A stretch of DNA of 23,960 nt from a virus. Shown here piece by piece: positions 1 to 23,679 of the stretch; within the stretch, counting starts at the first letter, position 1; each line of letters opens with the position of its first letter. Under the pieces are notes generated by a model. That model worked only from the letters and a program-made list of their open reading frames with translations. It did not search any database and was not told the origin of the DNA. The DNA is taken from positions 1 through 23,960 of IMG/VR virus record IMGVR_UViG_3300021197_001094. One strand, 5' to 3'. Made by a program: the position numbers and the translations under genes.

Positions 1-894
1 ACTGAAGAATACACAAACAACAAAAAAAGAAATCGTAAAAAAGGATATATTTCTATTGTTACAATTAAGGATTCCGATACCTTTAAGGCTGCAGATTTCT
101 TACAATTTAATATGCACTTTAACCCAACAGAAGAAGCAGCAATATTTGGCGATGGGCCGATTAATGGTGAAACAGCAAAGCAAGTTATTTTTGATTTCTT
201 TGATAGAAATGCTGCTTGGGCAAGCCCAACTGAACGTGAAAAAGCAGAACTAGAATTAGCCAACACAATAGGGTCAGGTTTTTCGGCTACAACTAATGAA
301 GATGATTTTTCAAGTATAACGTTTCGAGCAAGCATTGGAAGCTATACTTTTAGCAACCTAATTGATGATAGAAGTAAATTGACTGCACCTGAGTTTGAAA
401 CAGTGCGAAAACTTATTTTATCAGAAAGTGACGATAATCTAGCAGAATTTAGACTTTTTGGTCAAAATGAAATTGGTTATAATCCATTGCAAGACGTAGA
501 AGGATTAACATCAAAAACCGTCAAACGTGAATATTTAAATTATAATAATGAATTAACTCAGTTTGTTGAAAATAAACTTGCTGAAGGATCGTCTTTAACA
601 CGAGGCCAAATAAAAGACAAAGCAAATGAATTATTAGCAGATGTTGAGATAAGAATTGTTAAACAGCTCAAGGGTGAATACTTAGCTCAGCTTTCAAGTA
701 TTGCTGCATTAACAAACAATCAATTAGTTTTAAATTCCACAGACAGCCCATATGCCCAGCTTGAGGCTTGGAATGACGAAAAAGAACGTACCCTTTCTGG
801 TAACAATGAGGCTCTTAAAGAAACACGGCGTATTTACCAACAAACAAAAGATAAACTTTCAACATATGATAAGTACATAGAAGTGACCTACTAA
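1..894 (+). CDS. Virion-associated protein, C-terminal part (5' end outside window)
   Basis: The reading frame is open from the first base to the stop at 892-894, giving 297 residues. The first in-frame ATG (112) has no clear ribosome binding site, and the frame upstream of it is open and protein-like, so this is probably the C-terminal part of a longer gene. The product is charged and predicted largely helical, with Glu/Lys-rich stretches in the last 150 residues and no membrane segment. The next gene starts on its last base (TAATGG), which implies one transcript. Its place just before two giant proteins and a tail fibre suggests an internal core or ejection protein like the T7 gp15/gp16 class. 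I recognise no domain, so this role is inferred from context only. Confidence 0.6.
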   Translation, partial: TEEYTNNKKRNRKKGYISIVTIKDSDTFKAADFLQFNMHFNPTEEAAIFGDGPINGETAKQVIFDFFDRNAAWASPTEREKAELELANTIGSGFSATTNEDDFSSITFRASIGSYTFSNLIDDRSKLTAPEFETVRKLILSESDDNLAEFRLFGQNEIGYNPLQDVEGLTSKTVKREYLNYNNELTQFVENKLAEGSSLTRGQIKDKANELLADVEIRIVKQLKGEYLAQLSSIAALTNNQLVLNSTDSPYAQLEAWNDEKERTLSGNNEALKETRRIYQQTKDKLSTYDKYIEVTY

Positions 895-3806
895 TGGAAG
901 ATGAACTTTATACAAATGGCGATGAAGAGCTTGATCGATACTATTCGGCATCACTAATACAAAAAGCAAACTTTCCTGTAGATAAGATGGATAAGAGTAC
1001 CCTTGTACGTCAGTATGATGAAGAGTCAAAAAGCGATAAATTATTTATGCCGCTTGATACTGGTGGCTATACATCTGTCGGAAATGCGCCAGCAGAAATG
1101 ATACAAATGCCAGCAAGCTCAAAGCAGATGGCGTTTCCTATTCCAAAAAATAGAAGAGGCAATGGATTACAGGCGTATTATGACGATCTTGGCAGTGCTG
1201 TTAAAACAGTTGCAGATCCTATTATAACTGGCGTAGCGCAAGGTGTTGATCGTTTTACAGATACTGCGTCTGATTTTCTTGGTAAATATATACAGTTTAA
1301 ACTTGATCCTAATTTGTTTGACGGCCAAGCATTCCCAGAAATAAATCCAAAAGAAATAATAATGGATGCAACAGGATTTGAGGGCATCGATGTTTCTATG
1401 TTTGAGCCAGACACAAAGCCTGGCATGATGGCAAAAGAATTAATATCTTACGTTGTTGGATATTCATTAACGCCTGGTGGCCCACTAGGATCTGCTGGCA
1501 AAGTTGCCATGAAAGACGCAGGCGCAATGATGTCTGAGGGGCCGTATATTGGCAATATATTTGAGGTTGCGGCAGCTTTAGGTTTAGAAAATGAAATCAC
1601 CTCGTATCTAAGTGCATCAATAGAAAATCCTGATGACGCAACTTTAGATGAGCGACTAGCAAGCAGAATAAAAGCAACAACGGATATTCCGCTATTGGCT
1701 GGCGTTGTATTTGCTGCTGTTAAAATATTAGGAAATAAAGCATTTCAATTGGCTGCTGGTGGGTTAACTGGCACAGCTTTAACGGCTCAAGAAGCTGAAG
1801 GCAGCCCACTTGGTACGTTTGTAAGTCAAACCTTAAAAAGACTTGAGCGTTCTAAAATTAATGAAGCTGCAATAAACCCAAAACAGGCGAAGATTGTTAA
1901 AGAAGAAACACTAAGAATTAAAAATGAATACCCACCAGAAGACGGTTGGTTGCCAATAAGTTTAAACACAGATAGTAACTTACCAGTTTTTAAAGTTAAA
2001 AAAGACGGTAGTTTTGATCTTAGATGGTCACAACCAAGCTACGCTTTTCATATACCGCCAGGGTCTAAGAAAGACAGTGCATCCGTTTTAAAGCATCAGA
2101 ATAATCTAGCGTCCAGAATGTATGACGATGTTTTAGGCGTTGTGGAAAGAGCGAAAACAGGAGATCAAGCAGCTATTGATATTATAGCGCAGGCCAATTG
2201 GTATCGTTCCATGCGCTCTCGATTGCGTAAAGAGTTTGGCGGTATGGCAGATGTTTTTGCTGATATAATCGGGGCAACGTCTGCTCAAACAAACGTGCAA
2301 CAAAATTACGAAAATTCATTAAATGTCTTGCGCCGCTTTAGTCGAGGCGAGTTTGATAACGAAATAGCAATGTATTCACAGAAAGTTGAAGCAGGCGAGT
2401 CGTTAAGTAGTAAGGATCTGGCTATTTTACATAAGGATGAAAACAGTCCGTTCCGACTTATTACAAAAGCTGGTGGTGAATTGTTTAACACAAACAGTCC
2501 AGCAGCTACACAAGCTCTTCTTGATATGTTTCGACAGATTAAAAAAGGAAGTTCTCCTAAGACGAAAAACTTTACAGGAAATCTAATTGGTTTTGGAAAT
2601 GATGCTACGGTTGATGTATGGGCTGCACGATATTTGCGTGATGCTTCTGGGTTGCCTAGAATACCGCCACCAGTAGAAAAAGCCGTTGCTGGTAACCATC
2701 TTACAGGAAGCACTCTAGAAAATCCGATAATAGGATCTGAGTTTGGTTTTGGCCAAAAAGTATTTTCTGAAGCAGCTGATGCAATAAATCAAAGTGGTAT
2801 GATACAACAAGTTGATCCATCTCTTGGCGATCTTGGCCCCGATGATTTGCAAGCAGTTGTTTGGTTTCTAGAAAAAGAAAAATGGACAAAGAATGGCTGG
2901 ACAACAAAAGCAGGCGAAGGTGGCTCATTAGATTTTGAATCTGTCTATGGCGGCTCATCAGACTTTTCTAGGACAAAAGAATTACGAAGTATTATCAATT
3001 CAGTAAACAGTAACCCAGAACAAATTGCGGCTGCTAAGGCAGAATTAAAAACATTAGAGGGCGCACCGCAACGCATGGTTGGCGGTGTTGCTATGGAACG
3101 GCCAGACGCTGTACCAAGCAATGTTCAGCAAGCAAATTTAGCTGCTGAGTTGACTGCACCGCTTGTTGACGATCCAACAGTTATTGGCTACCAGGCTAAT
3201 AATACACTTGGTGAGTTTATGGGTGATACGGAAAGGTCGCTTAATTTTGAAATTGTAACGCAAACAGATTTTGATCCAACGGCTGTAACACGCTCACTTG
3301 TAGAGGCTGGTAAAAAGAACAATCAAGACAGCGTATTTATTTCTAAAGTTGTTGATCCTACAGTTTCTGGGGCAAGACCTGGCGTTGAAATTTATTTTAA
3401 AAATCGTACTGATGTTGCTGGAACACAAGCCCTTACTAAAAAGGTTACAGATCTTTTACGAGATAGAGATCTTGTTGGGTTTACTTTTATTACAGATGCT
3501 AGACAAGGTGATCGAGTTGATGTTCAAGCCCTTACAAAAAACCAAGGACAACAGACAGCAGGCATTAACGGTATACGGTTTCAATACATTCCAGAGTTTG
3601 ATCCAAATTTTGATCCAGCAAATGCGTCAGAAATATTTAGACAAAAAGCCGATCTTTATCTTGAAATAACTGAAGAAATGATTAATGTAGAAGGTGTAAC
3701 CTATGCTGATACTGTGTATTACGATACACAAGTGTTTAAGAATGAAGGGATGGATTATATCAATGGTGGAACAAGCTATGATGAATACCTCAGCTCCAGT
3801 CAATGA
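894..3806 (+). CDS. Large internal virion-type protein (970 aa)
   Basis: A 970-residue protein whose ATG overlaps the stop of the preceding gene by one base. The N-terminal 100 residues are hydrophilic. Residues about 180-300 hold Gly/Ala-rich, partly hydrophobic stretches (near SYVVGYSLTPGG and IPLLAGVVFAAVKILG) that could be membrane-active helices. Residues about 400-490 have an aromatic and basic block (NWYRSMRSRLRKEFGG, then ADIIGATSAQTNV) resembling a domain I recall from other phage polyvalent proteins (DUF7178-like), not verified. The C-terminal third is mixed alpha/beta. Size, hydrophobic segments and position between another virion gene and the tail fibre fit an ejection/internal virion protein that enters the cell with the DNA. 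No peptidoglycan-hydrolase motif was recognised. Confidence 0.6.
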   Translation: MEDELYTNGDEELDRYYSASLIQKANFPVDKMDKSTLVRQYDEESKSDKLFMPLDTGGYTSVGNAPAEMIQMPASSKQMAFPIPKNRRGNGLQAYYDDLGSAVKTVADPIITGVAQGVDRFTDTASDFLGKYIQFKLDPNLFDGQAFPEINPKEIIMDATGFEGIDVSMFEPDTKPGMMAKELISYVVGYSLTPGGPLGSAGKVAMKDAGAMMSEGPYIGNIFEVAAALGLENEITSYLSASIENPDDATLDERLASRIKATTDIPLLAGVVFAAVKILGNKAFQLAAGGLTGTALTAQEAEGSPLGTFVSQTLKRLERSKINEAAINPKQAKIVKEETLRIKNEYPPEDGWLPISLNTDSNLPVFKVKKDGSFDLRWSQPSYAFHIPPGSKKDSASVLKHQNNLASRMYDDVLGVVERAKTGDQAAIDIIAQANWYRSMRSRLRKEFGGMADVFADIIGATSAQTNVQQNYENSLNVLRRFSRGEFDNEIAMYSQKVEAGESLSSKDLAILHKDENSPFRLITKAGGELFNTNSPAATQALLDMFRQIKKGSSPKTKNFTGNLIGFGNDATVDVWAARYLRDASGLPRIPPPVEKAVAGNHLTGSTLENPIIGSEFGFGQKVFSEAADAINQSGMIQQVDPSLGDLGPDDLQAVVWFLEKEKWTKNGWTTKAGEGGSLDFESVYGGSSDFSRTKELRSIINSVNSNPEQIAAAKAELKTLEGAPQRMVGGVAMERPDAVPSNVQQANLAAELTAPLVDDPTVIGYQANNTLGEFMGDTERSLNFEIVTQTDFDPTAVTRSLVEAGKKNNQDSVFISKVVDPTVSGARPGVEIYFKNRTDVAGTQALTKKVTDLLRDRDLVGFTFITDARQGDRVDVQALTKNQGQQTAGINGIRFQYIPEFDPNFDPANASEIFRQKADLYLEITEEMINVEGVTYADTVYYDTQVFKNEGMDYINGGTSYDEYLSSSQ

Positions 3807-3954
3807 GTTAGAAGAAACATTAAAAAGACGCATTGCAAAAGCTGGCGAAGATGATGTTGTGGTAAAACAAATTCGCAGACAGTTAGCTGCTGAAAAAACT
3901 GGTAAAAGTTTTGGGCAACTTTATGTATCAGGTTCTGTAAAAAGACCAGCATAA
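3778..3954 (+). CDS. Small hypothetical protein (58 aa) between two giant virion genes
   Basis: The frame overlaps the end of the 970-aa gene by 29 bases. The start is either of two adjacent ATGs (3778, 3781), with GGTGGA at 3765-3770 as ribosome binding site. The product is charged and probably helical (LEETLKRRIAKAGEDD, then IRRQLAAEKTGKS), with no membrane segment or known motif. The stop lies 27 bases before a terminator-like hairpin, so it closes this transcriptional block. It could be a small structural or scaffolding-type protein, but nothing shows a function. Confidence 0.55.
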   Translation: MMNTSAPVNELEETLKRRIAKAGEDDVVVKQIRRQLAAEKTGKSFGQLYVSGSVKRPA

Positions 3955-3980
3955 TACAACATAACAATTTAATTAAGGAT

Positions 3981-4006
3981 AAGGTCACTTTATGTGGCCT
4001 TTTTTT
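3981..4006 (+). terminator. Intrinsic terminator-like hairpin over the start of the next gene
   Basis: AAGGTCAC (3981-3988) pairs with GTGGCCTT (3994-4001), with one G-U pair and the loop TTTAT. T residues run from 3999 to 4006. This is the classic form of a rho-independent terminator for the upstream block. A possible GTG start of the next gene (3994) is inside the hairpin, and its ATG candidate (4012) lies six bases after the T run, so termination is probably partial. Confidence 0.6.
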
Positions 4007-4011
4007 ATGGC

Positions 4012-7000
4012 ATGGCATTAAATTTATCATTATCGGCAGAGGATCTGGCAGAGCAGAACCGCATGAACGAGGCTGAGCGTATGCGAGGTGACGTTACAGA
4101 AGTTAGCCAAGGGCCAGAGGTTGACAATAAACCTATTCAAATGGCTGGCGGTAGTGCTTTAGGGCAACTGTTTAAGAACTTAGGTAAGAAAACAGTAAGT
4201 GATGTTACGCCAAGTAACCAGCCAGCAAGAGTACCAACAGAACAAGAGATGCCTTTGCTTCAAGATAATGCTGATTATTCTTTGCGAAAAACACAAGAAG
4301 AACAATCGAAAGTATTGCTTTCACCAGAAGGCCAAAAAGAATTTGCATCCCAAAACTTTAGTGCATCACCAGCTCAAGATGATTTATTGTCTGCACAAAA
4401 AGCATTAGAAGAAGAAATTAGCGCAGCTGAATCTATGGCGACAGATGTAAATAAGCAGGCAAAAAGAGCGCTTAAAGCTGACGAAAACATCCAAGCTTCA
4501 GATCCTACAAAAAATGTAGCCTCTGAAGAATTAACAGATAAAGTTTTAATTCAAAGACAAGCAGCAATCGATCTTAGTAATGATAAATCTGGTTTTAATT
4601 TTGGTAACATTACAAGCTCAGATGATGTAAAAAACAGCATACAAATAATAGCGCAACAACTTCAAGATCCGCAAAATGTTGTAACCAGAGGCATTAGAGA
4701 TAACAAAACTACTATGGCAGATGCGGCAAAAATTGCTGCTGACGAAATGGGTTTTAAAAGAAAATTACTATCTCGCAAAGTTGGTGACGCAAATTTAAAT
4801 GCTGAAGAACTCGTTGCCTCTCGTATGTTGCTTGTTGACTCAGCCCAGCAACTTAATGATATGGCTGTTAAAATTGAAAGTGGCCAGGCTAATGCATTAG
4901 ATCGGTTGCGATTTCGCAGGCAACTAGCAATTCATGCTGGCATACAGTTGCAGATCAAAGGCGCACAGACAGAAGCTGCCAGAGCGTTACAGTCATTTCG
5001 TATCGATGTTGGCGGTGAAATGGATGGCATTCGTGCAGGGCAAGAAGCTATGCGAATGCTGAATGAAACTGGTGCAAATGTTACAACAGAAACACTAGCA
5101 AAACATTTACTAAAAGCGCAGAAAGAAGGTGGTCTAGGAGCTGTTAATAAATTTGCAGAAAATGGGTTTGGTGCAAAATTAAAAAAACAAGTGCATGAAG
5201 CCTACCTTGCAGGGCTTCTTTGGCAAACAGCTTCACAGTTTAAAAACATCTTAGGCAGTGCAACATTTATGCTTTATCAACTTCCGGCTGAGCAAGCTGC
5301 CGGTATGTATGGAGCATTTGTACGAGGTGGATATAAACTTATTGGTCAAAGAGCAAAAATACCAGAAGATCAAGTTTACTTAAATGATGCTTATTTAAGA
5401 ATTAAAGGGCAGATGGCTGCTTTTAAAGATGCCATGAAATTAGGTTCAATAGCTTTTAGAACAGAAATGCCGGCAAGCCAGGTAAATCGTGCAGATCTTG
5501 AAGAGTATAAATCCATAGCAAGTGGCACAGATCCAGAGTATTCAACAATAGGAAGAGCTATTGATGTTTTTGGAAAAGTTGTTCGGCTGCCATTTCGTGG
5601 GATGTTAACGGCTGATGAATTTTTTAAAACAATGTCGCAACGAGGGGAACTCTATACTTTAGTTAACCAACGCTACCAACACTTTAAGAACCAAGGTTTT
5701 ACAGACCAGCAAGCCGCAGATAAAGCTGGGATGCTTGCGCTAGATCCTGGTGCGGTTGGTGAGCAGTTAGATAAAAAAGCTCGATACGATACAATGATGT
5801 CAGATCTTGGCACGTTTGGAAAAATGTCTGGCATGGTTCAAAGAACTTGGGTAGGTAGATTTTTATTTCCATTTGTAACAGCTCCCACCAATTCAATGCT
5901 GGCAACATCTGATTTTATGCCCTTATTTGCACCTCGCACATACGCAGATCTTCTTGGAAAGAATGGAGCTAAAGGCCATCAAAGAGCAGTAGGAAAACTA
6001 GCAGTCGGTAGCGCATCCATGTTTATGGTTGGTGAGTATGCCATGAATGGGCAGATCACTGGATCAATGCCGCAAGATAAAAAGGTACGAGAAGCTTTAC
6101 CGAAAGGATGGCAGCCCTATAGCTTGGTATTTCGTAAGAATAATGATACTTGGCCAAAAGATGAAAATGACGAATTGCTACCAATCTACGATAAATATGG
6201 CAGACCTAATGGTGAATTAACTTATGTGAGTTATCATGGGTTTGAGCCAGTAGGGGCTATCATTGGAATTACCGCAGATATTATGCAACGCATGGTTCGC
6301 ACAAGAGATCCAGAAATGAGAGAGAACATTGTAATGGCCACCCTTGCATCTACAGCAGATTACTACACCCAGCTCCCAATGTTAAAAGGTCTTTCAGATA
6401 TTACGTCTGCACTGGAAGACGGCAATATAGTTAATTTATTGCGAGGCCCAGCGGAAGCCACAACAGATGGCGGTTTTCCAATAAGTGGTTTGTTACGCAT
6501 GATTAATAGAACCACAGATCCTATTAAGACTCGTACAACAGTACCTGTAGAATACTACACCTTAGCAGATGTTAATGAAAAGCTACCTAGCGGCGAACTT
6601 AGATTTAAGCATCCTGATGGCGGCCCTGACTTTAGAATGGTGGGTACAGCTAAAAATGATATGACAACTGTGGCTATGAACATACTCAAGCAAGTTGATG
6701 CGTATAATGCTAAAGATAGTAACTTCAGAGATGAAACGCAAAAAAATGTTGTGCTTTATGATACGCTTGGAAATACATTAGGTGCTGACGATTACCATTG
6801 GGCAACATCGCCAGGCTATACTTTGTGGAACAATATAACTGGTATTAGATTCAAAGAAGGCAAAGACCCTTCTGTTCTTGAAAATGAACTTATGCGAGTT
6901 GCAGCTGTTACGAATGGCTGGCCACTAACTTCACCTACAAATCGTAAAGCAGGCATTAAGCTTTCAAATAAAAATATAAGCGATTGGGTCAATCTTTCTA

Positions 7001-7248
7001 AAAATGAAATCTCTATAAAACAAAGCAGAGGTATTATGGATTTTAGAGATGCGTTGTTAGATTTAGTTGCAGCAAGCCCCTTATATAAAAAAGCAAATGA
7101 TTTTCAAAAAGCGTCATTAGTAAAAGCAAAAGAACAAGAATATTTAAATGCTGGGTTTGAAGCATTGATAAACTTGAAAGGAAACGAAGGGCTTAGAAAA
7201 GCCTATACCGAAAGCCAACTTGTAAAAGAAGAAGGACTCAAACGATGA
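4012..7248 (+). CDS. Very large internal virion / ejection-type protein (about 1078 aa)
   Basis: A giant protein typical of phage virion cores. Residues 1-350 are hydrophilic, Gln/Glu/Lys-rich and probably coiled coil. From about residue 390 there is a helical region (AYLAGLLWQTASQFKNILGS), then LPFRGMLTADEFFKTMSQRGELY and a block around VGRFLFPFVTAPTNSM. This order of 'ADEFFK' and 'RFLFPFVTAPTN' resembles the large polyvalent-protein domain LPD38, from memory and not verified. Hydrophobic stretches around residues 660-685 and 755-770 could contact membrane. The start is uncertain: GTG 3994 has AAGG nine bases upstream but lies in a terminator hairpin; ATG 4012 lacks an obvious ribosome binding site. 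The stop overlaps the tail fibre gene (ATGA), so the two are translationally coupled. Confidence 0.6.
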   Translation: MALNLSLSAEDLAEQNRMNEAERMRGDVTEVSQGPEVDNKPIQMAGGSALGQLFKNLGKKTVSDVTPSNQPARVPTEQEMPLLQDNADYSLRKTQEEQSKVLLSPEGQKEFASQNFSASPAQDDLLSAQKALEEEISAAESMATDVNKQAKRALKADENIQASDPTKNVASEELTDKVLIQRQAAIDLSNDKSGFNFGNITSSDDVKNSIQIIAQQLQDPQNVVTRGIRDNKTTMADAAKIAADEMGFKRKLLSRKVGDANLNAEELVASRMLLVDSAQQLNDMAVKIESGQANALDRLRFRRQLAIHAGIQLQIKGAQTEAARALQSFRIDVGGEMDGIRAGQEAMRMLNETGANVTTETLAKHLLKAQKEGGLGAVNKFAENGFGAKLKKQVHEAYLAGLLWQTASQFKNILGSATFMLYQLPAEQAAGMYGAFVRGGYKLIGQRAKIPEDQVYLNDAYLRIKGQMAAFKDAMKLGSIAFRTEMPASQVNRADLEEYKSIASGTDPEYSTIGRAIDVFGKVVRLPFRGMLTADEFFKTMSQRGELYTLVNQRYQHFKNQGFTDQQAADKAGMLALDPGAVGEQLDKKARYDTMMSDLGTFGKMSGMVQRTWVGRFLFPFVTAPTNSMLATSDFMPLFAPRTYADLLGKNGAKGHQRAVGKLAVGSASMFMVGEYAMNGQITGSMPQDKKVREALPKGWQPYSLVFRKNNDTWPKDENDELLPIYDKYGRPNGELTYVSYHGFEPVGAIIGITADIMQRMVRTRDPEMRENIVMATLASTADYYTQLPMLKGLSDITSALEDGNIVNLLRGPAEATTDGGFPISGLLRMINRTTDPIKTRTTVPVEYYTLADVNEKLPSGELRFKHPDGGPDFRMVGTAKNDMTTVAMNILKQVDAYNAKDSNFRDETQKNVVLYDTLGNTLGADDYHWATSPGYTLWNNITGIRFKEGKDPSVLENELMRVAAVTNGWPLTSPTNRKAGIKLSNKNISDWVNLSKNEISIKQSRGIMDFRDALLDLVAASPLYKKANDFQKASLVKAKEQEYLNAGFEALINLKGNEGLRKAYTESQLVKEEGLKR

Positions 7249-10200
7249 CAGTATCATCAACCAATACCAAACGGCAGTTTAACGGCGATGGCTCAACAGC
7301 TGCCTTTGCGTATAATTTTAAAGTCTTTGCTGACGCTGATTTGCAAGTCATTGTGCGAAGTGCGACTGGCACGGAAAGCGTTAAAACATCAGGATCCCAC
7401 TACAATGCTTCAGGGATTGGTGAAACAAGCGGTGGTACGGTTACATTTACATCCGGCAACATCCCAGCCTCTGGCGAAACAATAACGCTACGGAGAGCTA
7501 AGACAGTTGCTCAAGAGCTTGACCTCGTTGCTAATGATCCTTTTCCAGCCGCAAACTTAGAAAACCAGCTCGATAAATTAACGCATTTAATTTTGCAAAA
7601 TAATGAAGAGCTTGACCGTGCGTTGAAGCTATCACGAACAAACACGATGACTTCTACAGAGTTTACAAACTCAGCAACGGATCGAGCAAACAAGCTGTTA
7701 AGTTTTGATGGCTCTGGCGAGTTATCTGTAGCCCAGGAGCTTGGTTCATTCAAAGGCGATTGGGGAGCTTCTACGGCCTACGTTGTCAGGGATTTGGTAA
7801 AAGACACAAGCACAAACAATGTGTTTATATGTATTACTGCCCACACAAGTTCTGGCTCTCAACCTCTTACGACAAACACAGATTCTGCAAAGTGGTCTTT
7901 GATTGTTCAAAACCTTATCACCACGCAAACAGATATTACATCGATACTGAATACAAGCCTGGTGGTTGGGCGTGATGCAGATAACGATATTGATTTTGGT
8001 ACAGATAATACCATCATTTTAAGGGCAGCCGCAGCTGACCAAATTAAACTTGTTGATGGAGCTATTGCACCTGTTACTGATAACGATGTTGATTTAGGAA
8101 CAACATCTCTTGAATTTAAAGATATGTTCATTGATGGAACGGCTCATATCGATACGCTTGATGTTGATGTAAATGCAGCGGTTGGCGGTAATGCTACAGT
8201 TGCAGGCACACTTGGCGTAACAGGCGCAGTAACAGGTTCTAGCACAGTACAAGGAACAGTTATAACAGCAACGACAGGCTTTGCTCCAGATGCTTCTGAT
8301 GGAGCATATTTAGGTACAAGCTCATTGCAGTTTAGTGATTTATTTCTAGCTGACGGTGCAATCATAAAACTAGGTGATGACCAGGATGTAACGCTAACTC
8401 ATGTTGCAGATGTAGGCGTATTATTAAATAGCACAAGCCAACTGCAATTTGGTGATAGCGGTACATATATTCATCAATCAGCAGACGGTGTATTAGATTT
8501 AGTTTCTGATACTGAAATAGAAATTAACGCCACTACTATTGATATCAATGGTGCTGCTGATATTTCTGGTAACCTAGCAGTAGGCGGCACATTAGGAGTA
8601 ACAGGAGCAACAACATTAGCAGCTACTTCTTTTGGCGATGCAAATATAACTAATGTAGGCAATATAGCACTAGACTCAATAAGTGCAGACGGCACTGACA
8701 TAGCTGTAGCTGTATCCGATAATTCTGCTACAGCTTTAACTATTAAACAAGGCTCTAATCCTTATCTAATCATAGACACAGGCGATGGGGATGAGTCAGT
8801 CGCTATTGGAACAGGTGTTAACGGAACGGCAATTTCCATTGGCCATACAACTTCTGAAACAACCATCAATGATAACCTAACCGTGACAGGTGATTTAACG
8901 GTAAACGGTTCAACGACAACTGTTGATACGGCAAACCTTGCGGTTAAAGATAGCCTTGTTGGATTAAACACAGGAGCATCAACAGGAAACGATGCAGGCA
9001 TAATTATTGAGCGTGGCTCTACAGGCAATGACGCTTTAATAATGTGGGATGAGTCTGAGGATAAATGGACTTTAGGTACAACAACAGCAACTGCATCGAG
9101 TACAGGCAATTTAAACATCACCGCTGGAACTCTTGTAGCTAACCTGGAAGGTAATGTTACAGGCACAGCTTCAACAGCAACCGTTGCAACAACAGTTACA
9201 ATTACGGATAATGAAAGCACAAATGAAGATAATGCGGTTGTATTCACGGCTGGTGGTGATGTTGACGGTGGAAACATTGGATTAGAAAGTGACGGTAATT
9301 TAACCTATAATCCAAGCACAGGAAAGTTATCGTCTACACTTGTAAGCGGTGGAATACAAACAGCGTTAATAGAATTTACAGACGGAACGGATGCTATTAC
9401 GGTTGCTAGTGGTGGTGGTATTACAGCCAACGTAAGTTTGACCCTAGCTTCTGGCTCTACAGTTACAGCGGTACTTGATGAAGATAATTTTGCTTCAGAC
9501 TCAGCTACAGCCTTGGCCACGCAGCAAAGCATCAAAGCCTACGTTGGAACGATTGCAGGGCAGTCAAATAACATTGTTGGTCTTACAGCTTCGGCCGATG
9601 AATTAAATATTTTGGATTGTTCAGAAACAACGCCTGCTACTGTAACGGTTGTTGATGGCGATGGTTTAGTCTTTAGCGATGGTGGAAACGGTGGAACTCT
9701 TAAACAAATTACTGTTCAATCACTAGCGGCTTACCTGGACGATGAAATTACGGCAATGCCTAACCTTGTTACAACAGCAGCAACAACAGTTGGTGCTTTA
9801 GATGCAGGTTCTATTACATCAGGGTTTGGAACTATAAATACTGGTGCATCTGCTATTACTACTACAGGAGCAATCACAGGTGGTAGCTTTGTAATTGGTT
9901 CAGCAGATATAAATGAAAATGACTTAGAGTCTATTGATGGTATTACAGCAGGCACAGTCGCAGCAAGTAAAGCAGCAGTCGTAGATGCTAACAAAGATAT
10001 AACTGGATTTAGGAATGTAACACTTACAGGTGAACTTGATGCAGCTACCTTAGACATAAGTGGGAATGCCGATATTGATGGCGATCTAACGGTTTCTAGT
10101 GCTGCTGTTAAAGTTGCAGGAAAAGAAACTATTTGGATTCCTGCTGCAGCTATGTATCCAAGCACAACAAATGGTTGCTCTGCATTAACTCAAGTAGAAA

Positions 10201-10634
10201 CCACTGCAGGAAGACCAGACTTAAAATGTTTAGATTTTGCTACAGGTGCAGATGATTTTGCACAATTTAGTATAGCTTTTCCTAAAAGTTGGAATGAAGG
10301 TACAATAACTTTTCAGCCTTTTTGGACAGTTACAGGAACAAACACAGGAACAGTTGCATGGGGATTAGCAGGTGTAGCTTCAAGTAATGATGATACTATC
10401 AATATTGCTTTTGGAACAGTTGTTGTTACGACTGCAAAAGCTCATAGCGGTACTTCAAATGATTTGATGGTTTCTAATGCAAGTGGAGCAGTAACAATAG
10501 CAGGTTCACCTGCTGCAGATGATTTATGTTTCTTCCAAGTAAGTCGAGATGTTTCTGCTGATGACCAATCAGGAGATGCAAGATTGCTTGGTATAAAACT
10601 GTTCTTCACTACTAACGCAGCAAATGACGCATAG
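7245..10634 (+). CDS. Tail fibre protein with T7-type N-terminal domain
   Basis: The first 130 residues resemble the phage T7 gp17 N-terminal domain, which fixes the fibre to the tail. The sequence runs from a start with NTKRQFNGDGST, through SGGTVTF and ITLRRAKTVAQELDL, to FPAANLENQLDKL. Residues about 230-900 are repetitive, low-complexity beta-rich sequence (recurring GTLGVTGA, DVTLTHVADVG, LQFGDSGTYI, LDLVSDTEIEINAT) typical of trimeric fibre shafts in marine phages. The C-terminal 165 residues form a separate globular region with WIPAAAMYPS, GCSALTQ and FPKSWNEGTITFQPFW, probably the tip. I see no self-cleaving chaperone domain. The ATG overlaps the previous stop, with AAGGA about ten bases upstream. 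Its role is receptor binding at the virion tail. Confidence 0.85.
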   Translation: MTVSSTNTKRQFNGDGSTAAFAYNFKVFADADLQVIVRSATGTESVKTSGSHYNASGIGETSGGTVTFTSGNIPASGETITLRRAKTVAQELDLVANDPFPAANLENQLDKLTHLILQNNEELDRALKLSRTNTMTSTEFTNSATDRANKLLSFDGSGELSVAQELGSFKGDWGASTAYVVRDLVKDTSTNNVFICITAHTSSGSQPLTTNTDSAKWSLIVQNLITTQTDITSILNTSLVVGRDADNDIDFGTDNTIILRAAAADQIKLVDGAIAPVTDNDVDLGTTSLEFKDMFIDGTAHIDTLDVDVNAAVGGNATVAGTLGVTGAVTGSSTVQGTVITATTGFAPDASDGAYLGTSSLQFSDLFLADGAIIKLGDDQDVTLTHVADVGVLLNSTSQLQFGDSGTYIHQSADGVLDLVSDTEIEINATTIDINGAADISGNLAVGGTLGVTGATTLAATSFGDANITNVGNIALDSISADGTDIAVAVSDNSATALTIKQGSNPYLIIDTGDGDESVAIGTGVNGTAISIGHTTSETTINDNLTVTGDLTVNGSTTTVDTANLAVKDSLVGLNTGASTGNDAGIIIERGSTGNDALIMWDESEDKWTLGTTTATASSTGNLNITAGTLVANLEGNVTGTASTATVATTVTITDNESTNEDNAVVFTAGGDVDGGNIGLESDGNLTYNPSTGKLSSTLVSGGIQTALIEFTDGTDAITVASGGGITANVSLTLASGSTVTAVLDEDNFASDSATALATQQSIKAYVGTIAGQSNNIVGLTASADELNILDCSETTPATVTVVDGDGLVFSDGGNGGTLKQITVQSLAAYLDDEITAMPNLVTTAATTVGALDAGSITSGFGTINTGASAITTTGAITGGSFVIGSADINENDLESIDGITAGTVAASKAAVVDANKDITGFRNVTLTGELDAATLDISGNADIDGDLTVSSAAVKVAGKETIWIPAAAMYPSTTNGCSALTQVETTAGRPDLKCLDFATGADDFAQFSIAFPKSWNEGTITFQPFWTVTGTNTGTVAWGLAGVASSNDDTINIAFGTVVVTTAKAHSGTSNDLMVSNASGAVTIAGSPAADDLCFFQVSRDVSADDQSGDARLLGIKLFFTTNAANDA

Positions 10635-20049: not shown

Positions 20050-20253
20050 ATGAAACTAAACGAGTGGCGGTTATCTAAGAAGCTAAGCTACAAAGATTTG
20101 GCTTACAAGGTTGGTGCGAAACACGCCACGATAGCACGGCGATGGTGCTTGGCTGAAGATCACCCACAGCGGCTTATCCCCAACACAGACTACATGAAAT
20201 CAATCATGCTTGCAACGCAAGGAGCGGTGAACGCCAATGACTTCTATAACTGA
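20050..20253 (+). CDS. Cro-like HTH regulator (67 aa)
   Basis: From ATG 20050 the product is 67 residues (in-frame ATG 20035 is an alternative; neither has a strong ribosome binding site). Residues 5-35 form a helix-turn-helix, WRLSKKLSYKDLAYKVGAKHATIARRW, with the usual Leu/Ala/Gly pattern. The rest is a short helical tail. It is the first gene after the early-right promoter and divergent from the repressor, the classic cro position; it would bind the same TTGACGT half-sites and favour lytic growth. Some replication or excision activators have similar size, so Cro is assigned mainly from location. Confidence 0.7.
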   Translation: MKLNEWRLSKKLSYKDLAYKVGAKHATIARRWCLAEDHPQRLIPNTDYMKSIMLATQGAVNANDFYN

Positions 20254-20638
20254 GGATCAGCTGCAAAAGCTCGTTGCACAGTATTTAACCTTGGCTCTAC
20301 CAGATGGCGCCGTATTCCATCACAGTCCTAATGAAGGTACACGCCATGTAAGTTTCAAAATGAAGCTCAAGAGCTTTGGCACACGATCAGGATGGCCAGA
20401 CCTGGAAATCTTCTGCCCAGATACAAAACCTATCTTCATAGAATTAAAACGGCCTGATGCAAAGGGCAGGGCAAAGGGTGTGCTGAGCCACAATCAGCGA
20501 TTGCTGAAAGAGCAGTTTGAAAACTTAGGTGTTCACTGGGCGATGTGCAAATCCCTTGATGACGTGGTGAACTTTCTTAGCCCATTAGTGAGGCTCAAGG
20601 GCGGTGATCGTTACGTTGATCTGGTGAGAGGTAAGTGA
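20237..20638 (+). CDS. VRR-NUC domain nuclease
   Basis: A 133-residue stand-alone VRR-NUC protein of the PD-(D/E)XK superfamily. Motifs: D55 in RSGWPDLEIF, E69-L-K71 in IFIELKRPDAKGR, Q87 in LSHNQRLL, and the closing GVHWAMCKSLDDVVNFL helix. Stand-alone phage VRR-NUC proteins are thought to act on branched or nicked DNA during replication or packaging. The start at 20237 overlaps the Cro-like gene by 17 bases, and its stop overlaps the methyltransferase ATG (TGATG), so all three are probably one transcript. Confidence 0.85.
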   Translation: MTSITEDQLQKLVAQYLTLALPDGAVFHHSPNEGTRHVSFKMKLKSFGTRSGWPDLEIFCPDTKPIFIELKRPDAKGRAKGVLSHNQRLLKEQFENLGVHWAMCKSLDDVVNFLSPLVRLKGGDRYVDLVRGK

Positions 20639-21744
20639 TGGCTCATGTGGATCTCTGCTCTGGCATAGGCGGCTTTGGATATGGCTTTGAAACCGTTGGA
20701 TTGAGCAAGCCAGTATTGTTCTGTGAGATAGATCCTTGGTGTAGAAAAGTCCTAAAGAAGCATTGGCCTGATGTGCCGATAGCAGAAGATGTAAAGGAGC
20801 TGGCAGATGACCCAGATCGATATGTTCCCAGAAACCTTAATTGGTCAAACACCATCCTCACAGCCGGATATCCCTGTCAGCCGTTCAGCGTTGCAGGCAG
20901 GCAAAGAGGCACAGAAGACCCTCGCCACATCTGGCCGTGGCTGCTTAAACTTGTTGCACTCAAAAGACCCAAGTTTGCCGTATTTGAAAATGTTACTGGT
21001 CACATTGCCTTGGGCCTCGATAAGGTTCTCAATGATTTGGAAGGTGAAGACTACGCCGTCACGACGCTTATTATTCCAGCTAGTTCAGTCGGTGCGCCCC
21101 ACAAGCGAGAGCGGCTCTGGATTATTGCACACTCCAACAGCAACAGCCAATCAGATGTCACCAAGCATGAGCAAGAGCGGTTGGTGGCCGACACCCAGAG
21201 CAGCAAGCGGTGGCCCAGGCAAGAACCCAAACAACAAAAGGGGGATGCACCAAGGCAATCCATTAGCAACGGCAGTGGCAATGTGGCCGACACCGACAGT
21301 ACAAGACAGCAACAAAGCTACAAAAAAATGGAGGACAGATCATCAAAACAATCTGACAGCAGCGATATTCAATCCAGACAAAATGTGGCCGACACCAGCA
21401 GCGAGGGATTGGAAGGGCGGCAACAGTTACGACAGCACACAAAAGAAAATGGACGAAGGCAAGAAGGCGCACATGGGTCAGTTGCCCAATGCTGTGATGA
21501 TGGCGCAGGGCAAACAGCCGACAGCACAGCTCAACCCAGAATGGGTGACCTGGCTGATGGGCTACCCAAGGGGCTGGACAGATTTGGAAGACACGACGGA
21601 TTTGAATTAGAGCCGTCTGATATTCCAAGAATTGCCAGTGGAATCAAAGACAGAGCGAACCGGCTCAAGGGGCTTGGCAACGCCATTGTGCCACAGATTG
21701 CAATGCAGATTGGCTTAGCCATCAAGGAGAGCCAATGGAAGTAA
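20638..21744 (+). CDS. DNA (cytosine-5-)-methyltransferase
   Basis: A 368-residue C5 methyltransferase that would transfer methyl from S-adenosylmethionine to cytosine, probably shielding phage DNA from restriction. Motifs: I, DLCSGIGGFGYGFE (5-18); IV, GYPCQPFS with catalytic C80; VI, ENV (117-119); VIII, GAPHKRERLWIIA (152-164); X, RLKGLGNAIVPQIA near the end. Between VIII and X, residues about 168-320 are unusual: hydrophilic, rich in Gln/Ser/Asp, with three VADT repeats (DNA repeat GTGGCCGACACC) and no recognisable target-recognition domain. Most of this region is also covered by a second long ORF in another frame. Start ATG 20638 rather than GTG 20635, because it overlaps the upstream stop. 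Confidence 0.92.
   Translation: MAHVDLCSGIGGFGYGFETVGLSKPVLFCEIDPWCRKVLKKHWPDVPIAEDVKELADDPDRYVPRNLNWSNTILTAGYPCQPFSVAGRQRGTEDPRHIWPWLLKLVALKRPKFAVFENVTGHIALGLDKVLNDLEGEDYAVTTLIIPASSVGAPHKRERLWIIAHSNSNSQSDVTKHEQERLVADTQSSKRWPRQEPKQQKGDAPRQSISNGSGNVADTDSTRQQQSYKKMEDRSSKQSDSSDIQSRQNVADTSSEGLEGRQQLRQHTKENGRRQEGAHGSVAQCCDDGAGQTADSTAQPRMGDLADGLPKGLDRFGRHDGFELEPSDIPRIASGIKDRANRLKGLGNAIVPQIAMQIGLAIKESQWK
20807..21610 (+). CDS. Overlapping ORF nested in the methyltransferase gene (267 aa)
   Basis: Entirely inside the methyltransferase gene, in its +1 frame. ATG 20807 has an ideal ribosome binding site, AAGGAG (20794-20799), seven bases upstream. The product begins MTQIDMFPETLIGQTPSSQP; QIDMF resembles the beta-clamp-binding pentapeptide (QADMF in DnaE). 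It carries three WPTP boxes (WWPTPRAASGG, MWPTPTVQDSNK, MWPTPAARDWKGG) and ends with LNPEWVTWLMGYPRGWTDLE, like motif IX of C5 methyltransferases. I recall phage proteins of this pattern annotated beside cytosine methyltransferases, not verified. An overlapping gene or frameshift partner supplying the missing recognition region is plausible; an artefact of the conserved methyltransferase sequence is the alternative. Confidence 0.55.
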   Translation: MTQIDMFPETLIGQTPSSQPDIPVSRSALQAGKEAQKTLATSGRGCLNLLHSKDPSLPYLKMLLVTLPWASIRFSMIWKVKTTPSRRLLFQLVQSVRPTSESGSGLLHTPTATANQMSPSMSKSGWWPTPRAASGGPGKNPNNKRGMHQGNPLATAVAMWPTPTVQDSNKATKKWRTDHQNNLTAAIFNPDKMWPTPAARDWKGGNSYDSTQKKMDEGKKAHMGQLPNAVMMAQGKQPTAQLNPEWVTWLMGYPRGWTDLEDTTDLN

Positions 21745-22192: not shown

Positions 22193-22290
22193 ACACAAAC
22201 AGCAGATTCTTTGATCTTTGGGTGGATAAACGCCCCTGGTGGAACAAAATGTGGACTCAAATACGAAAGGGGATTGACAGATGCTTTTAG
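22189..22290 (+). CDS. Tiny Trp-rich ORF (33 aa)
   Basis: ATG 22189 overlaps the upstream stop (ATGA). The peptide (MNTNSRFFDLWVDKRPWWNK, then MWTQIRKGIDRCF) is basic and contains four Trp in 33 residues. Its end overlaps the next possible start at 22281. Translational coupling is the main evidence; it has no recognised family. Confidence 0.4.
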   Translation: MNTNSRFFDLWVDKRPWWNKMWTQIRKGIDRCF

Positions 22291-22481
22291 GTTACGCTAT
22301 TCGTCAGAAGTCAGCTCCAGTAATTAAGCTCCACAAGATAAGCTCCACAAAGATTCGCTCCATAAGTGTTGCTTCACTAATAAATAAAATATTAAAAAGA
22401 TTAAGCAAAACGACAGCAGATAAGCACCTCAAGATAAGCTTATCTAGTGTAGCTTATCTAGTGGAGCTTAACTATGAGTAG
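22281..22481 (+). CDS. Doubtful ORF over an iteron-like region (66 aa)
   Basis: ATG 22281 has AGGGG eight bases upstream and overlaps the preceding ORF by ten bases. The product is basic and Ser/Ile/Lys-rich. Most of it is coded by short DNA repeats whose spacing is 14 or 15 bases, so the repeat is not kept in one reading frame. This suggests that the DNA sequence rather than the protein is under selection. It may still be translated as a leader for the next gene, whose ATG lies inside its end. Confidence 0.3.
   Translation: MLLGYAIRQKSAPVIKLHKISSTKIRSISVASLINKILKRLSKTTADKHLKISLSSVAYLVELNYE
22311..22470. repeat. Iteron-like repeats flanking AT-rich DNA (possible origin)
   Basis: Four consecutive 14-15-bp units share AGCTCCA at the same position (22311-22325, 22326-22339, 22340-22354, 22355-22369); a fifth is degenerate. 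An AT-rich stretch follows (about 22377-22410), then a 14-bp perfect palindrome AGATAAGCTTATCT (22432-22445) and two direct copies of AGCTTATCTAGTG plus T or G (22437-22450, 22451-22464), followed by AGCTTA. Iterons next to an easily melted block are typical of theta replication origins. No initiator gene is recognised in the window, so a regulatory role is equally possible. Confidence 0.45.
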
Positions 22482-22488
22482 CTCCACT
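22460..22488 (+). promoter_or_regulatory. Hairpin holding the start of the DUF6362-like gene
   Basis: AGTGGAGCT (22460-22468) pairs perfectly with AGCTCCACT (22480-22488). The 11-nt loop contains the ATG at 22474 and the 5' arm contains its ribosome binding site GGAG (22463-22466). In RNA this 9-bp stem would hide the ribosome binding site and loop out the start codon. Confidence 0.5.
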
Positions 22489-22878
22489 TATGATATTAAA
22501 TATCTCGATGATCTTTTCAGTGAAGCTGCGGAAACAGAGCGAAGGCTTCCAGCTGCAATTCGCAAGCAGAAGATGGTCACTTGGCCAGAGTATCTGAGCG
22601 ATTGGAAAAGCTACGGATGGGATGATTACACTCCTAGACTCTCACCAGCAACAACCATCCAGGTAGATCGATTTGAGTTGGCTTTAGACATGGGCATAAA
22701 ACATATGGACGCAGAAGATCGTAAGCTTGTCTGGCTGGTGTGCCACAGCGGTGCATTCAACGAAAGAGGGCCTCGATGGACGAAACTCGCCAGAGCTATG
22801 GGATCAGAACGTAGGATTGTAAAGCGGCGATATGACCAGGCAATCATAAGGCTTTACTACAAGCTTTTGCATTCCTAG
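22474..22878 (+). CDS. DUF6362-like HTH protein upstream of terminase
   Basis: A 134-residue protein with ETERRLPAAIRKQKMVTWPEY near the N-terminus, then RFELALDMGIKHMDAEDRKLVWLVC and a C-terminal sigma-region-4-like helix-turn-helix (WTKLARAMGSERRIVKRRYDQAIIRLYYKL). The order 'RLP...TWP...ALDMG...DRKLVW...HTH' matches DUF6362 proteins as I remember them, commonly encoded before the small terminase gene. The role is unproven; a late-gene regulator or packaging-related DNA-binding protein is plausible. GGAG lies seven bases before ATG 22474, inside a hairpin. About 250 bases of structured non-coding DNA follow. Confidence 0.7.
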   Translation: MSSSTYDIKYLDDLFSEAAETERRLPAAIRKQKMVTWPEYLSDWKSYGWDDYTPRLSPATTIQVDRFELALDMGIKHMDAEDRKLVWLVCHSGAFNERGPRWTKLARAMGSERRIVKRRYDQAIIRLYYKLLHS

Positions 22879-23131: not shown

Positions 23132-23275
23132 ATGTCACTCTACAGAAATATTAACAAGAAAAAGAAAGCTGGCACAAGTAAGCCGAAGTCGAAGTCAACG
23201 ATAAGCCCCAAAGCTTACAAGGATATGAAAGCTGGGTTTCCAAACAGCAAGAAGAATAAGGCAAAGAAGAAGTAA
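23132..23275 (+). CDS. Small Lys-rich basic protein (47 aa)
   Basis: The start ATG 23132 has AAGGA eight bases upstream and gives MSLYRNINKKKKAGTSKPKS and a C-terminus of mostly lysine. I recall small proteins beginning MSLYxNI that are common in phages near the packaging genes. ATG 23105 (56 aa) is an in-frame alternative with a weaker site. The stop shares one base with the terminase ATG (TAATGG). The strongly positive charge suggests nucleic-acid binding; the function is unknown. Confidence 0.6.
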   Translation: MSLYRNINKKKKAGTSKPKSKSTISPKAYKDMKAGFPNSKKNKAKKK

Positions 23276-23679
23276 TGGTGAAACGCAACGTAACGCAGGC
23301 TCAGTTTAAGAGCATCTGCGAGCAGCTCATTCATGGCAAAAGCTTGGAAACAATCTGCAAGGCTGACAGTATGCCAAGCAGCAGAACCATTCTGCGATAT
23401 GTGCAAGACGATGAGGATGCTTACAAGCAATACAGAGCTGCGAGGGCGATCCAAGCTGAAGTTCTAAGGGATTCAATAATTGAGTTAGTTGAGCGAGAGC
23501 TGCCAACAGATCCTAAGCTTGCAATGGCAGAGGTACAGCGACGTAGATTAGAGGCTGACCACAAGGATAAGTATATACGGCAGCTCGCTCCACTTGGCAT
23601 TAGGGATCGATCAGAGGATAAGCAAGCATCAGGTAGCATCACGTTGTCATGGGAAGGTGCAGAGATAGTTAGTGGGTAG
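23275..23679 (+). CDS. terS: Terminase small subunit
   Basis: A 134-residue protein with the features of Sf6-like small terminases. An N-terminal helix-turn-helix (FKSICEQLIHGKSLETICKADSMPSSRTILRYV) is followed by AYKQYRAARAIQAEVLRDSIIELVE, a central oligomerisation helix (KLAMAEVQRRRLEADHKDKYI) and a short C-terminal tail. It would recognise the packaging site and regulate the large terminase. GTG at 23278 also follows its ATG directly. The large terminase gene is not seen in the remaining 281 bases, so it should lie beyond the window. Confidence 0.8.
   Translation: MVKRNVTQAQFKSICEQLIHGKSLETICKADSMPSSRTILRYVQDDEDAYKQYRAARAIQAEVLRDSIIELVERELPTDPKLAMAEVQRRRLEADHKDKYIRQLAPLGIRDRSEDKQASGSITLSWEGAEIVSG

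Follow-up and report, generated by a model that had tools for sequence, protein, structure and literature searches.

The window, i.e. the whole stretch of DNA that was analysed, is a virus record of 23,960 bp, in which two ORFs share the same DNA in two reading frames (Table 1). The outer ORF encodes a C5 cytosine methyltransferase, referred to below as alpha, and the ORF nested within it in the +1 frame is referred to as beta. An earlier note, made from the sequence alone, had described the nested ORF together with its AAGGAG element, and the coordinates were borne out. The outer-frame motifs named there, I, IV (PCQ), VI (ENV), VIII and X, have all been located, and alpha matches PF00145 (3.6e-38, 132 bits against a cut-off of 22) and phrog_363 (3.8e-66). 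Between motifs VIII and X alpha consists of a linker of the VADT type. The layout of beta comprises, in order, (i) a QxxLF N-terminus, (ii) a helix-rich stretch lying over the catalytic motifs, (iii) three WPTP modules and (iv) motif IX. The QIDMF start, the three WPTP boxes and an end close to motif IX had all been read in the inner frame by the earlier note and were found where Table 1 lists them. The VADT repeats and WPTP boxes are, as claimed, one DNA read in two frames: GTGGCCGACACC occurs three times (21184, 21283 and 21385), and its translations are VADT (outer frame) and (W/M)PTP (inner frame).

The database search of the inner protein, proposed in the same note, was successful in part. 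Beta matches phrog_1008 (2.1e-31), a phage family labelled "DNA methyltransferase"; no family match was obtained in Pfam, NCBIfam or PADLOC, and no match by sequence in the PDB. The gene of a VRR-NUC domain protein adjoins the methyltransferase pair on the 5' side in 28 scored loci, and a functional link with the methyltransferase is possible. On the 3' side, a DUF6362 protein (22474-22878) and an Sf6-type small terminase (23275-23679) are encoded, both of which are kept in many related phages.

Table 1. Positions of the genes and sequence features of the alpha/beta locus in the window
Feature	Position	Strand	Remarks
VRR-NUC domain protein	20237..20638	+	Directly 5' of the pair; PF08774, 1.6e-6
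Alpha (putative subunit), outer frame	20635..21744	+	C5 cytosine methyltransferase ORF
Shine-Dalgarno element of beta, AAGGAG	20794..20799	+	Spacer of 7 nt; reads ..K-E.. in alpha
Beta (putative subunit), nested +1 frame	20807..21610	+	267 codons, ATG start, inside the alpha ORF
QIDMF, clamp-ligand-like peptide	20813..20827	+	N-terminus of beta
LHTPTATANQMSPSMSKSGW segment	21125..21184	+	First, partial beta module; recurs as LLHTPTAxANQMxPSM in many loci
WPTP module 1 of beta	21185..21283	+	WPTP box starts at 21185; equals VADT repeat 1 of alpha
WPTP module 2 of beta	21284..21385	+	WPTP box starts at 21284; cluster M13, common to four other loci
WPTP module 3 of beta	21386..21523	+	WPTP box starts at 21386
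Motif IX of beta, LNPEWVTWLMGYPRGW	21530..21577	+	
Motif X of alpha, GNAIVP	21676..21693	+	3' of the beta stop codon

Conservation and initiation of the inner frame

Homologous loci were gathered with the outer protein alone, and approximately 70 other distinct loci were scanned; one contig with a frame break (L006/L010) was left out of scoring. In every scored locus the same +1 frame stays open from a point past motif II as far as motif IX, a run of 188-406 codons, and the third frame contains 11-34 stops. Outer-synonymous codon shuffling predicted about 8.4 stops for the inner span of the window and a mean of 6.5 per locus, against none observed in either case, but these are supporting figures only, because the open run itself set the limits of the tested span. 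Almost all loci gathered conversely with the inner (beta) profile use the other frame for their catalytic part and motif X. Beta is conserved in about 200 loci, and those retrieved with its profile come from viruses and from MAGs assigned to Bacteroidetes, Nitrospirales, Clostridia, Planctomycetes, Spirochaetes, Verrucomicrobia and others; all these loci share kinship, and locus counts are counts of non-independent events. Among the loci classified, which were retrieved within the limits of the patterns MGYPxGWT, WLMGYPxGW and VEWMMGLP, no beta was found without an overlapping methyltransferase. E. coli chromosomes yielded nothing close to a copy of the L210 or K1-type genes. In four loci (L127, L183, L193 and L006) the catalytic part, the beta N-terminus and motif IX lie in different frames or ORFs, which may reflect sequencing errors, pseudogene formation or frame switching.

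The initiation region of beta has been retained as well. Beta starts with ATG or GTG, and the Shine-Dalgarno core is present in 88 of 97 non-redundant loci, compared with 36.7 expected from outer-synonymous shuffles; of these signals the Shine-Dalgarno count alone is informative, because the start site was itself chosen as a start codon. The lysine codon within this element is AAG in 70 of 71 cases, versus 190 of 384 in non-overlapping alpha. In one locus (L056) the start is shifted by one codon and is still present. An in-frame stop is located no more than five codons 5' of the beta start in 87 of 102 loci. The simplest reading of these features is that beta initiates independently and not by frameshifting.

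Division of constraint between the frames

The third codon position of the inner frame is the first of the outer frame, and the second inner position is the third outer one, so that divergence by codon position separates the two frames. Outside the overlap, alpha shows divergences of 0.16/0.08/0.45 at positions 1/2/3 upstream and 0.09/0.09/0.47 downstream. Within the overlap its third-position divergence falls to 0.27 over the catalytic motifs, and in the module region the pattern is inverted (0.22/0.08/0.07 at outer positions 1/2/3). The motif IX region gives 0.18/0.09/0.09, and at motif X alpha is back to normal third-position divergence. The module region of Kagunavirus was left out of this test, since differing modules misalign there.

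Estimates of omega for 42 disjoint pairs, with each locus used once, give the same division. Over the catalytic overlap omega is 0.44-0.46 for the inner frame and 0.19-0.20 for the outer; over the modules the values are 0.11-0.18 and 0.61-0.98, and over motif IX 0.14-0.15 and 0.32-0.33, respectively. The inversion in the modules is seen in 38 of 40 pairs, compared with none of 41 in the upstream non-overlapping control. Thus, the outer frame is the more strongly constrained over the catalytic motifs, and the inner frame from motif VIII to motif X. The omega pattern in the modules indicates that selection sees the inner WPTP text, the outer VADT text being nearly neutral, and this near-neutrality of alpha between motifs VIII and X means in turn that alpha is without a recognition region of its own. 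The repetitive, featureless recognition region that the earlier note ascribed to the outer frame is thereby accounted for: it looks like repetitive nonsense because it shadows the inner modules and is itself close to neutral.

The per-frame measurement of constraint across aligned homologues, which that note had put forward, was therefore run and finds the inner frame strongly constrained. Of its three explanations, a true overlapping gene is the one supported, by the open frame, by the retained start and Shine-Dalgarno element and by the strong inner-frame constraint among homologues. Comparison of the loci shows that both frames behave as protein-coding and selected, and the inner ORF is almost certainly a real gene under selection.

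Motifs of the two proteins and rival readings

Motif IX, with the consensus LNPxWVEWLMGYPxGW, is present in all 102 beta proteins and in none of the 102 alpha proteins, and GNA[VI] of motif X is found in 100 of the 102 alpha proteins. The match of alpha to M.HhaI is confined to residues 4-169, corresponding to motifs I-VIII; in a profile alignment beta motif IX aligns over VMGYPDSY of M.HhaI, although this stretch alone is not significant. Further arrangements were retrieved by a scan for the motif IX variant VEWMMGLP. They are of three types: (i) single-chain C5 methyltransferases in which one frame holds motifs I-VIII, this motif IX and motif X (37 strict cases), some of them (L268, L218, L228, L239 and L315) with the PTP modules in frame as well; (ii) single chains whose motif IX is in frame and whose PTP modules are read in +1 (L225, L252, L288 and L320); and (iii) splits similar to M.AquI (L221, L227 and L237). 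The chains with +1-frame modules have a stop before the WGxYxxAIxRWE region, which is another overlap arrangement. In L315 (490-2844) an intein (CFVAGTSVLTHDG...VVHN) interrupts the single-chain enzyme precisely at its catalytic PC|Q. Pyei1_p05 of Paracoccus was considered as an experimentally characterised relative and ruled out, its motif IX being ordinary and in frame (RELFRAQGFP).

The reading preferred here, to which a probability of about 0.86 is assigned, is that beta is the recognition and motif IX subunit of a C5 methyltransferase whose catalytic subunit overlaps it. Two overlapping frames would thus yield one two-subunit cytosine-5 DNA methyltransferase, with beta made by internal initiation on the mRNA shared with alpha, and the pair would rebuild an enzyme similar to M.HhaI. 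Alpha would be responsible for AdoMet binding and the attack on cytosine, and beta would supply the target-recognition region, composed of one or more PTP modules of about 41 residues, together with the motif IX that organises this domain. The part of alpha between motifs VIII and X would serve as a long unconstrained linker, which need only stay open for translation to reach motif X.

The composite enzyme suggested in the earlier note stands in so far as each product has conserved motifs that the other lacks; the programmed frameshift proposed to produce it is unneeded, because of the in-frame stop upstream of beta in 87 of 102 loci and the conserved signals for independent initiation. Under such a frameshift, translation would start with alpha and shift by +1 near motif VIII, giving one chain with motifs I-VIII, the modules and motif IX. 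Alpha up to motif VIII joined to the inner frame onward does form a normal-looking C5 methyltransferase of 324 residues, and single-chain relatives exist. However, beta keeps its own Shine-Dalgarno element and ATG or GTG just behind the stop, the approximately 100 beta codons preceding the modules are themselves under the inner-frame constraint measured over the catalytic overlap, and a single shift would miss motif X, which is conserved in the alpha frame. On casual inspection no conserved slippery site was noticed. The frameshift is accordingly considered quite improbable.

A similarly low likelihood is attached to beta being an overprinted accessory gene, translated without being a subunit, for example a regulator, a clamp-binding protein or an anti-defence protein. 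Overprinted phage genes commonly have free functions, and the QxxLF peptide of beta is enriched far above expectation. Such a role is at odds with the ending of beta in a C5 methyltransferase motif IX that alpha lacks in 102 of 102 loci, with the occurrence of beta-type modules and motif IX in frame in single-chain methyltransferases, and with the nearly neutral evolution of alpha between motifs VIII and X. The last of the readings, an inner frame that is a conserved by-product of the codon usage and repeats of the outer methyltransferase, is rejected as next to impossible: shadow proteins from homologous DNA do resemble one another and frames rich in GC frequently lack stops, but the homologues retain the inner start, ribosome binding site and an open frame free of the predicted stops, the inversion of constraint and the substitution pattern contradict a shadow, and in AT-richer relatives with PTP modules in frame the outer-type frame gains stops (23 in L227 and 12 in L237), a control that is partial because GC-rich relatives gain few.

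Beta modules, the QxxLF peptide and comparison with known systems

A total of 403 modules with a median length of 41 residues were identified in 141 distinct beta proteins, each of which has one to six, mostly three. They fall into 164 sequence clusters and 102 arrangements. In the Kagunavirus/Jerseyvirus isolates, whose aligned parts are 93-98% identical to K1G, relatives with similar flanks differ by whole modules, which in all cases are in frame in both readings: K1G has one module, K1ind2, Golestan and EcoPhCCP1 have two each, a Salmonella phage has three, and the single module of Bas72 is different from that of K1G. Judging by their position between motifs VIII and IX, the PTP modules are probably the target-recognition region, and each module may have a separate target. 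A change of specificity in these phages would then proceed through the exchange or addition of whole modules. The AlphaFold2 model of beta alone is weak (pLDDT 67, pTM 0.36) and gave no fold match in the PDB. The single chain L268 is modelled with a pTM of 0.76 and matches M.HhaI in Foldseek (5.5e-14), with its PTP modules at low confidence; because of this quality of the modelled modules, their assignment to recognition is based on position and constraint.

Short recognition units gained, lost and recombined between motifs VIII and IX are known from the C5 methyltransferases of the Bacillus phages SPbeta, phi3T and SPR. By that description the two groups are alike in having several short units in this place; in contrast to the single-chain, single-frame Bacillus phage enzymes, the array described here is located on a separate nested protein.

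The peptide Q..[LMI]F occurs within the first 25 residues of beta in 78 of 97 loci, whereas outer-synonymous shuffling predicts 5.1. QxxLF is located elsewhere in L002/L003 and several MAG loci, over motif IV of alpha, where the alpha sequence favours LTLF, and in a marine group its place is upstream, over the alpha residues DPxRLVP. The bacterial clamp-binding consensus is QL(S/D)LF. The beta peptide resembles a sliding-clamp ligand and might, as a weaker suggestion, anchor the enzyme on the sliding clamp of the host or of the phage. Combinatorial specificity of beta, with one target per module, cassettes traded while open in both frames, loading through QxxLF onto the clamp and methylation of nascent DNA, as by PCNA-bound DNMT1 in animals, is a tentative extension of the two-subunit reading, and taken as a whole it is somewhat doubtful.

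Among two-subunit enzymes, the small ORF of M.EcoHK31I reportedly lies within the large one, in a different frame, as Lee et al. in 1995 and later work are said to have described, and M.EaeI is said to be alike; the beta ORF lies inside alpha in the same manner. In M.EcoHK31I, termed naturally split (PMC3439449), the large chain bears motifs I-VIII and X and the small one motif IX, and the recognition domain is predicted to lie in the large subunit; M.AquI is also split, with motifs IX-X on the small chain (PMC3404938). Alpha and beta divide their motifs as M.EcoHK31I does, and three of the features that define this type, a large chain without motif IX, a small chain with it and a nested ORF, are all found at the locus. 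By analogy in motif layout and nesting, the pair is most likely a two-subunit C5 methyltransferase of the M.EcoHK31I type. There are differences, however: the constrained region between motifs VIII and X is on the small subunit here, and beta, which is phage-borne, combines several exchangeable modules with a clamp-like N-terminus. Four features are new here and go beyond the prototype: a beta with multiple modules, constraint divided by frame, QxxLF at the N-terminus and the wide distribution. With M.AquI the pair shares the construction of a C5 methyltransferase from two overlapping, mutually complementing ORFs, but motif X is on the large subunit, past the beta stop.

In the literature searched, no published account was found of the K1G-type pair as an enzyme or of the relation between its ORFs. 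The names phrog_363, phrog_1008 and "Mte8-like protein" (E. coli phages K1G/K1H) are annotation labels, and alpha and beta of the window match the two phrog families. Both nested ORFs are annotated in K1G, K1ind2 and PhiXhv-28, in K1G as "putative C-specific methylase" and a nested "putative Mte8-like protein". The annotations of Bas72 and Golestan contain alpha only, and for EcoPhCCP1 (L337 389-1180) GenBank has the inner ORF alone as "DNA methyltransferase", with the catalytic outer ORF omitted; the annotation of nested pairs is thus unreliable. The alpha/beta arrangement proves old and very common among phages: it extends over viruses, phages of E. coli, Salmonella, Paenibacillus, Lacticaseibacillus and Xanthomonas, and MAGs of many phyla, and what appeared as an annotation oddity becomes a large overlapping-gene family with a clear split of labour between the frames. 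The locus offers constraint on two frames in a genetically clean form, and the pair is carried by laboratory phages such as K1G and Bas72, the latter a Kagunavirus isolate of the BASEL collection. BASEL Kagunavirus phages stay sensitive to the restriction systems tested (PMC11990801), so broad protection by the methyltransferase pair is not a given.

Elsewhere in the window, dense AGCTCCAC/AGCTTATCTAGTG repeats are present at 22320-22480, overlapping a doubtful ORF (22281-22481), and are possibly a regulatory or a packaging/replication site. Three very large ORFs of 970, 1084 and 1129 aa lie in tandem at 894-10634; the family-library scan of the first gave a weak PHROG match only.
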